Part shown: positions 6,345 through 7,224 of the stretch, one piece after another
Layout: the number at the start of each line of letters is the position of its first letter
How positions within the stretch are numbered: the stretch's first letter is position 1
DNA from: a virus
DNA: 28,898 nucleotides
IMG/VR virus record: IMGVR_UViG_3300042557_000443
Location: 1 to 28,898 of that record
Direction: 5' to 3' (one strand)
Translations under genes and position numbers: made by a program
Notes under the pieces: generated by a model
Seen by the model: the letters and a program-made list of their open reading frames with translations, nothing else
Database searches by the model: none
What the model was told of the DNA's origin: nothing

Positions 6345-6701
6345 ATGAAAAAGACACTTAGCACATCAGACATCGCACACGCTCTCAAATCAGACGAATA
6401 CGCAGCTTGGAGTTGGAACGGGGCGCGGGCTCTTGCGGAATACCTCGAACAACTTGAAGAGGACACCGGCGAGGAAATGGAGCTAGACCGTTGCGCCATT
6501 CGCTGCGACTTCTCAGAGCATGAAACGGCTTTAGAGGTTGCCCGCGATCATGGAAATGACTGGACGCCGGAAATGTTCAATGACGATGGGACCGAAAATG
6601 AAGAATTTGAAGAAGAGCTTGAAGAGCATTGCTTGGAATGGCTCCGGGACAGGACGACGGTCATTGAGTTTGACGGCGGTGTGATCGTTTCCTGCTTCTA
6701 A
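6345..6701 (+). CDS. Acidic phage protein, 118 aa
   Basis: Strongly acidic (LEQLEEDTGEEMELDRCAI; ENEEFEEELEEHCLEWL) and ending in TTVIEFDGGVIVSCF. I recall similar acidic proteins with a conserved LRDNTTVIEFDGG-type end as widespread, uncharacterised phage early proteins. The charge suggests, without proving, a DNA-mimic or anti-defence role. It follows an A/C-rich leader (CAAATCAAAC...) without Shine-Dalgarno. Confidence 0.75.
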   Translation: MKKTLSTSDIAHALKSDEYAAWSWNGARALAEYLEQLEEDTGEEMELDRCAIRCDFSEHETALEVARDHGNDWTPEMFNDDGTENEEFEEELEEHCLEWLRDRTTVIEFDGGVIVSCF

Positions 6702-6711
6702 ATCCAACCCC

Positions 6712-6732
6712 GGCGAGGTTCAATCCCTCGCC
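6712..6732 (+). other. 7-bp hairpin with tRNA T-loop-like sequence
   Basis: GGCGAGG (6712-6718), loop TTCAATC, CCTCGCC (6726-6732). The perfect stem and the 7-base loop beginning TTCAA match a tRNA T arm, but no acceptor, D or anticodon arm surrounds it. It lies in the 44-base gap between two genes; the sequence after it is AT-rich without a clean T-run. Confidence 0.5.
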
Positions 6733-6745
6733 AATATTTAAAAAC

Positions 6746-6958
6746 ATGAAAACTACATCATTTAAAGCGATTTATCAAGGAACTGGCGAGGATCATGGGA
6801 AATCCTTCACATGGAAATTCTACCGGGACCCAAAACATGGATGGTCTCTTACAGATTACAATGGTTACGAAAGGACGCTTGAAAAGACATGGACTGACTC
6901 CCTGCCAGTGATCCGCCGCATCCTCTCAAATCACGGCATGACTTGCCCGCTGTCCTAA
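6746..6958 (+). CDS. Unknown early protein, 70 aa
   Basis: Starts MKTTSFKAIYQGTGEDHGKS and contains FTWKFYRDPKHGWSLTDYNG, an aromatic-rich strand-like pattern. No family recognised. Its TAA stop (6956-6958) is directly followed by the hammerhead ribozyme, so its mRNA would acquire a new 3' end about 25 bases past the stop after self-cleavage. Confidence 0.65.
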   Translation: MKTTSFKAIYQGTGEDHGKSFTWKFYRDPKHGWSLTDYNGYERTLEKTWTDSLPVIRRILSNHGMTCPLS

Positions 6959-6959
6959 A

Positions 6960-7011
6960 TTCCGAAACGCCTTTCGGGGCGTCTGGCGGTGAATCCGTCA
7001 CTGATGAGGAA
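6960..7011 (+). ncRNA. Type II (circularly permuted) hammerhead ribozyme
   Basis: All conserved hammerhead core parts are present in the order expected when stem II is the open stem. Stem II 5' strand TTCC (6960-6963); G12-A13-A14-A15.1 = GAAA (6964-6967); stem III ACGCC/GGCGT (6967-6971 with 6978-6982), loop TTTCGG; cleavage triplet GTC with C17 at 6983; stem I TGGCGG/CCGTCA (6984-6989 with 6995-7000, one G-U pair), loop TGAAT; C3-to-A9 = CTGATGA (7001-7007); stem II 3' strand GGAA (7008-7011). Cleavage is predicted between 6983 and 6984, giving a downstream RNA with a 5'-hydroxyl just ahead of the gene at 7030. Confidence 0.85.
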
Positions 7012-7029
7012 AACAAACAAAACGAAAAC

Positions 7030-7224
7030 ATGAAACATTCCGTAGAAATCACAAAAGAAGCAGCTTGGCAACTTATCGGAAACGATGAAAAAACATGGAC
7101 GGATTACCAGCAAAACGAGCTTTCCGAATCGTCGTTTTATCTGTCGCACGGGGTAAGGATCGCTGCAATTCACAATTACCTTTCCAACGTCACGCAATAC
7201 TTTATTCAAGACATAAACGCATGA
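7030..7224 (+). CDS. Unknown early protein, 64 aa
   Basis: Starts MKHSVEITKEAAWQLIGNDE and ends in VRIAAIHNYLSNVTQYFIQDI. It is soluble, with no family recognised. ATG 7030 follows an A-rich leader (AAACAAACAAAACGAAAAC) which begins immediately after the ribozyme, so ribozyme cleavage would leave a defined leader of 46 bases (6984-7029), starting with stem I. An upstream in-frame start would run through the ribozyme and is rejected. Confidence 0.6.
   Translation: MKHSVEITKEAAWQLIGNDEKTWTDYQQNELSESSFYLSHGVRIAAIHNYLSNVTQYFIQDINA

Follow-up and report, generated by a model that had tools for sequence, protein, structure and literature searches.

A compact type II hammerhead ribozyme abutting a phage stop codon and its probable use as a cut point between two genes

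The DNA analysed here (the window) is the whole of an IMG/VR virus record of 28,898 bases. Its capsid, tail and endolysin genes bear out the phage origin given in the initial annotation, and the record further encodes ERF, exonuclease VIII, a DnaA-C domain and HNH proteins. The term "early operon" used for the locus is plausible, given the ERF, exonuclease VIII and DnaA-C genes, and is kept here as a presumption. By capsid, the closest named relative is Phage C75C1 (57.5%), in which neither an Rfam match nor a hammerhead was detected by structural scan. When genome contigs were searched by pattern for relatives of the major head protein, none came up, and the clade's hammerhead was likewise not found in genome contigs. 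Three small genes on the plus strand define the locus. The first is a 118-aa gene (6345-6701); 10 nt beyond its stop codon lies a hairpin resembling a tRNA T-arm (6712-6732), and relatives of this gene are followed either by such a hairpin or by a hammerhead. Its product shares about 40-44% identity with hypothetical proteins of the Microcystis cyanophages Ma-LMM01 and Mic1. Next come a 70-aa gene (6746-6958) and a 64-aa gene (7030-7224), both without a Pfam match. The stop codon of the 70-aa gene ends one base before a hammerhead motif at 6960-7011, which places the motif between two cistrons, as originally described. The leaders at 7012-7029 and 6733-6745 are A-rich and lack a Shine-Dalgarno-like motif at normal spacing; the host may initiate from them without Shine-Dalgarno pairing.

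The motif reads on the plus strand as a type II hammerhead of compact form. Stem II, the open end, pairs TTCC (6960-6963) with GGAA (7008-7011) over 4 bp. It is followed by the core segment GAAA (6964-6967; G12, A13, A14 and A15.1), which is invariant among the aligned relatives. The stem III hairpin (6968-6981) pairs CGCC (6968-6971) with GGCG (6978-6981) around the loop TTTCGG; its 4 bp are extended by the A15.1-U16.1 pair (6967 with 6982), giving the 5 bp counted in the initial annotation. U16.1 and C17 (TC, 6982-6983) precede the stem I hairpin (6984-7000), in which TGGCGG (6984-6989) and CCGTCA (6995-7000) form 6 bp, one of them G-U, closed by the 5-nt loop TGAAT. The core segment CTGATGA (7001-7007; C3 to A9) comes next; at its position 7, relatives have either T or C. 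Reading the sequence in this way accounts for every hammerhead core base (C3 U4 G5 A6 N7 G8 A9, G12 A13 A14 A15.1 and U16.1 H17). Stems I and III are loop-closed, stem II is open and no mispairs adjoin the core. Hammerhead numbering puts the predicted self-cleavage between 6983 and 6984, leaving a 46-nt leader (6984-7029) for the 64-aa gene, in agreement with the site and leader proposed before.

The Rfam check suggested in the initial annotation gave a match to the full Hammerhead_II model (RF02276) with an E value of 1.4e-5 in a search of 161 bases against all Rfam families and of 6.4e-7 over the whole record. The score of 33.5 bits falls short of Rfam's curated 37 bits, which serve as a threshold for curation and are no defining trait; a default Rfam scan is therefore silent on this element. 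Our strict structural scan, which yields one chance match per 60 shuffled windows, found no hammerhead but this one in the 28.9-kb record. The window copy has no Watson-Crick pairing of loop I with the tail beyond stem II, a pseudoknot usual but not universal in type II hammerheads. ViennaRNA predicted a competing hairpin, CCGAAA-CGCC-TTTCGG (6962-6967 with 6972-6977), which masks some of the hammerhead core and whose full 6 bp depend on the stem III loop TTTCGG. In the sequence contexts tried, the competing hairpin is favoured over the active fold, by only a small margin in those of 56 nt and 75 nt; the active fold takes up 0.007-23% of the predicted ensemble before tertiary and Mg2+ effects. 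In this model the competing hairpin may slow folding of the ribozyme. Two other readings of the segment were rejected. An ORF (6943-7224) crosses the hammerhead; relatives differ by 2-nt indels within the motif, which is thus non-coding. An intrinsic terminator was also considered, as a GC-rich hairpin plus T run on the gene strand, and no terminator-like site was present on the plus strand near 6960-7030.

Relatives of the locus were gathered through the upstream protein, the downstream protein and a DNA pattern, and 12 distinct motifs were aligned. All 15 pairs form in 12 of the 12 sequences, so that each of the 180 pair cells holds a standard pair. Stems I and III, for which the initial annotation had looked to related phages for covariation, carry double-sided, compensatory changes at four pairs, three in stem III and one in stem I. 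The covariation score of these 12 relatives was 0.210, compared with 0.091 in shuffles, and was reached by none of 500 shuffles. Position 7 is the only variable core position among them, and its T/C alternation is tolerated in hammerheads. Stem II is invariant across the 12, partly because the DNA search pattern fixed it. The sequence changes thus argue that the hammerhead is under selection as an RNA. With the core, the three stems, the Rfam model match and the covariation in agreement, the type II assignment and the coordinates 6960-7011 are confirmed from sequence as a real and complete hammerhead, one that judged by its sequence is almost certainly catalytically active.

A generic pattern extended the survey to other phages. 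It matched at least 120 contigs, and at least 113 viral contigs contained a motif that passed the stem test; metagenome contigs that are related do not count as independent samples. Stems I and III were kept in 132 of 145 pattern matches gathered without a pairing requirement, as against 0.5 after spacer shuffling, among the matches listed. Two forms were apparent among the 161 distinct motifs analysed from the matches listed. Pairing of loop I with the tail beyond stem II occurs in 44 of 69 long forms (13.6 expected by random pairing) and in 7 of 92 compact forms (6.0 expected), again among the matches listed. That over half of the sampled phage copies, like that of the window, are compact and lack the loop I-tail pseudoknot usual for type II is a new observation. 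Loop I of the compact form opens with U and an A directly precedes stem II in 81 of 86 copies among the matches listed, and two copies swap these to A and U; this gives a thin hint of a tertiary pair between the two bases in the compact form. Of 17 loci selected for compact hammerheads, only 5 had a match over the Rfam cut-off. One viral contig (L031) contains nine type II hammerheads in series over about 4 kb.

The position of the motif is nearly fixed. Each of the 22 close relatives leaves 0-1 nt between a stop codon and the motif; their upstream genes belong to three families and their downstream genes to at least four. Among the matches listed, 135 of 161 hammerheads lie within -6 to +12 nt of the upstream stop codon, with a mode at -1 nt and a median of 55 nt from the cleavage site to the next start; random positions fall in the same interval in 6.4% of cases (213/3320). 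This stop-abutting placement of phage hammerheads is new here. A ribosome terminating at the adjoining stop codon would cover the motif's first bases. Ribosomes completing the upstream gene could accordingly cover stem II and GAAA and delay cleavage, so that the ribozyme would gauge upstream translation. Such a regulatory device would suit both the 0-1 nt spacing in the close relatives and the many distant motifs, among the matches listed, in which the stop overlaps or abuts stem II. We nevertheless consider it unlikely, as the compact layout of phage genomes could by itself, without translation coupling, bring an element of 50 nt up against the stop codon and leave room only for the next start region.

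The T-arm-like hairpin upstream (GGCGAGG-TTCAATC-CCTCGCC, 6712-6732, plus strand) belongs to a recurrent class. In 349 kb of loci of the window's relatives, with overlapping loci counted repeatedly, we found 44 such hairpins, none of them within a tRNA call, and none appeared in shuffles. They consist of a 6-7-bp covarying stem and a TTCNANY loop situated 6-12 nt past phage gene stops; the covariation score of the stems was 0.733 compared with 0.203, and 0 of 500 shuffles reached it. Two stem families, GGCGAGG and AAGCGGG, were distinguished. Besides the window, the carriers are L002, L004-L011, L013-L015, L028, L139, L141 and L147. Scanning and inspection revealed no RNase P-like acceptor pairing beside the window-type hairpins. 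Searches of open-licence PMC papers brought up none describing a T-arm-like, intergenic phage element linked to RNase P, which is weak evidence of novelty.

These hairpins and the hammerhead replace one another at one junction. In L006, L007 and L014 a T-arm hairpin lies between relatives of the 118-aa and 64-aa genes, and in L139 and L147 a hammerhead lies between those same two genes, both flanking genes being homologous across the two sets. This exchange at a homologous junction is newly observed here. Stem III of the hammerhead stands 8-9 nt and the T-arm hairpin 10 nt from the stop codon, and both would leave a GC-rich hairpin just past a terminating ribosome. The occurrence of the T-arm at the homologous junction suggests that what this junction requires is an RNA end that is defined or protected, by whatever means it arises, and not the ribozyme itself. 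We also considered the hammerhead as a seam for recombination, carried as the conserved 3' terminus of gene cassettes open to exchange, with a role at the DNA level and cleavage incidental. One element following unrelated genes and preceding other unrelated genes, and the cassette-like unit of a gene with its 3' element, are in keeping with such a seam. We hold it to be distinctly improbable: pairing is kept despite sequence change and the core is fixed except at position 7, neither of which a DNA seam needs, and the swap for an unrelated T-arm hairpin breaks the sequence identity.

Taken together, the self-cleaving type II hammerhead probably serves to cut a phage transcript of several genes at the border of two of them, and an mRNA-processing role is the best reading that we infer for the window copy. 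It draws on the sequence, the fold, the covariation, the fixed post-stop position and the use after several unrelated genes, as well as on the junction swap. Established chemistry gives hammerhead cleavage products a 2',3'-cyclic phosphate and a 5'-OH. The RNA, once transcribed and clear of the terminating ribosome, would cut itself at 6983/6984 co-transcriptionally. The upstream mRNA would then end in the stem III hairpin with its 2',3'-cyclic phosphate, which is expected to slow 3' exonucleases. The downstream mRNA would start with a 5'-OH inside the stem I hairpin, for which slower 5'-end-dependent decay is expected, and the two cistrons would thereby get separate lifetimes. In further support, hammerheads around ardA in an Agrobacterium tumefaciens prophage self-cleave in E. 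coli as well as in vitro (Perreault et al., 2011; PMC3088659). Several points weigh against this reading: the missing Watson-Crick pseudoknot between loop I and the tail is the usual fast-folding contact of type II, the competing hairpin is predicted, the stop-abutting site may reflect compact genomes, and nothing is known to cleave the T-arm hairpin.

The chemistry of the ends could also mean that they serve for ligating or circularising RNA and not simply for separating mRNAs, and hammerheads do occur serially in other phages (nine in L031, five within 2.4 kb in Streptomyces phage R4). For the window we judge this very improbable, since a single hammerhead in 28.9 kb frees no segment between two, and spliced or circular products were sought and none found by Perreault et al. 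(PMC3088659). Chance resemblance or a dead relic would fit the score under the Rfam curated cut-off but is hardly credible, being already contradicted by the E value of 6.4e-7, the covariation in relatives and the retention of stems I and III in the listed pattern matches.

A further element accompanies some of the hammerheads. The hammerhead-bearing contigs L088 and L123 also carry GGGTG-RCTGGCAGNC-[T-stem]-TTCRAGN'-CACCC between phage genes, that is, an acceptor stem and a T-arm with a D-loop-like linker and no other arms. The pattern GGTGNCTGGCAGNC..GGTTCRA..CACC, located in L088, L123 and L159-L236, occurs in at least 120 phage contigs. Linker base N and loop base N' are Watson-Crick partners, of all four kinds, in 86 of 88 cases, and about 70 of 92 elements lie 7-11 nt past a stop codon, both among the matches listed. 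No Rfam match was obtained at E 0.5 for the six loci searched. A hammerhead was also present in 13 of 87 of these loci among the matches listed, on the same strand in 13 of 13, and 2 of those 13 loci had originally been found through their hammerheads. This mini-tRNA-like element is separate from the hammerhead, unannotated and widespread in phage contigs. The hammerhead-bearing contigs L018, L033, L061 and L133 contain more tRNA-like stretches seemingly without a D-arm, with acceptor and T-arm 26-32 nt apart; some of these may be ordinary tRNAs or chance.

As a tentative extension, multi-gene phage transcripts could possibly be punctuated by interchangeable post-stop RNA elements, in which hammerheads would stand beside tRNA-arm and mini-tRNA mimics; these mimics would enlist the host's tRNA-processing or tRNA-binding enzymes for making or protecting the RNA end. 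The natural hammerhead/T-arm swap at one junction offers a direct handle on the role of prokaryotic hammerheads. If the two elements perform one and the same function for a gene pair, a comparison of mRNA ends and stability would reveal it. The unannotated mini-tRNA-like family merits a study of its own.

Type II hammerheads are common in bacteria and flank prophage genes, and long phage transcripts have been proposed to be processed by them into shorter mRNAs (Perreault et al., 2011; PMC3088659). The phage intergenic placement as an mRNA-processing device, which the initial annotation had singled out as its point of interest, is therefore not new. The role of prokaryotic hammerheads was still called an open question in a 2017 review (PMC6155905), and a 2023 paper on permuted hammerheads pointed to an unexplained enrichment of bacterial hammerhead and twister ribozymes in the vicinity of similar genes, strongest for genes of Mu-like phages (PMC10085705). 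The window copy has in common with RF02276 and the published type II ribozymes the permuted order, the core, the phage intergenic site and the proposed role; it differs in its compact stem I (6 bp with a 5-nt loop U-N-A-N-G/U), in lacking the typical Watson-Crick pseudoknot and in scoring 33.5 bits against the cut-off of 37. With the A. tumefaciens ardA prophage it shares hammerheads at the gene borders of a phage region; there, multiple ribozymes flank known genes and cleavage has been seen, whereas here one ribozyme, known from sequence, lies between two genes of unknown function. Among cultured Streptomyces phages, R4 (NC_019414, L277) has five type II hammerheads in 2.4 kb and Spernnie (MT701594, L278) three in 1.6 kb, all over the Rfam cut-off; neither record lists a ribozyme feature. 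These phages carry several hammerheads per operon whereas the window record carries one, and all have in common intergenic type II hammerheads placed directly past stop codons in operons of small genes.
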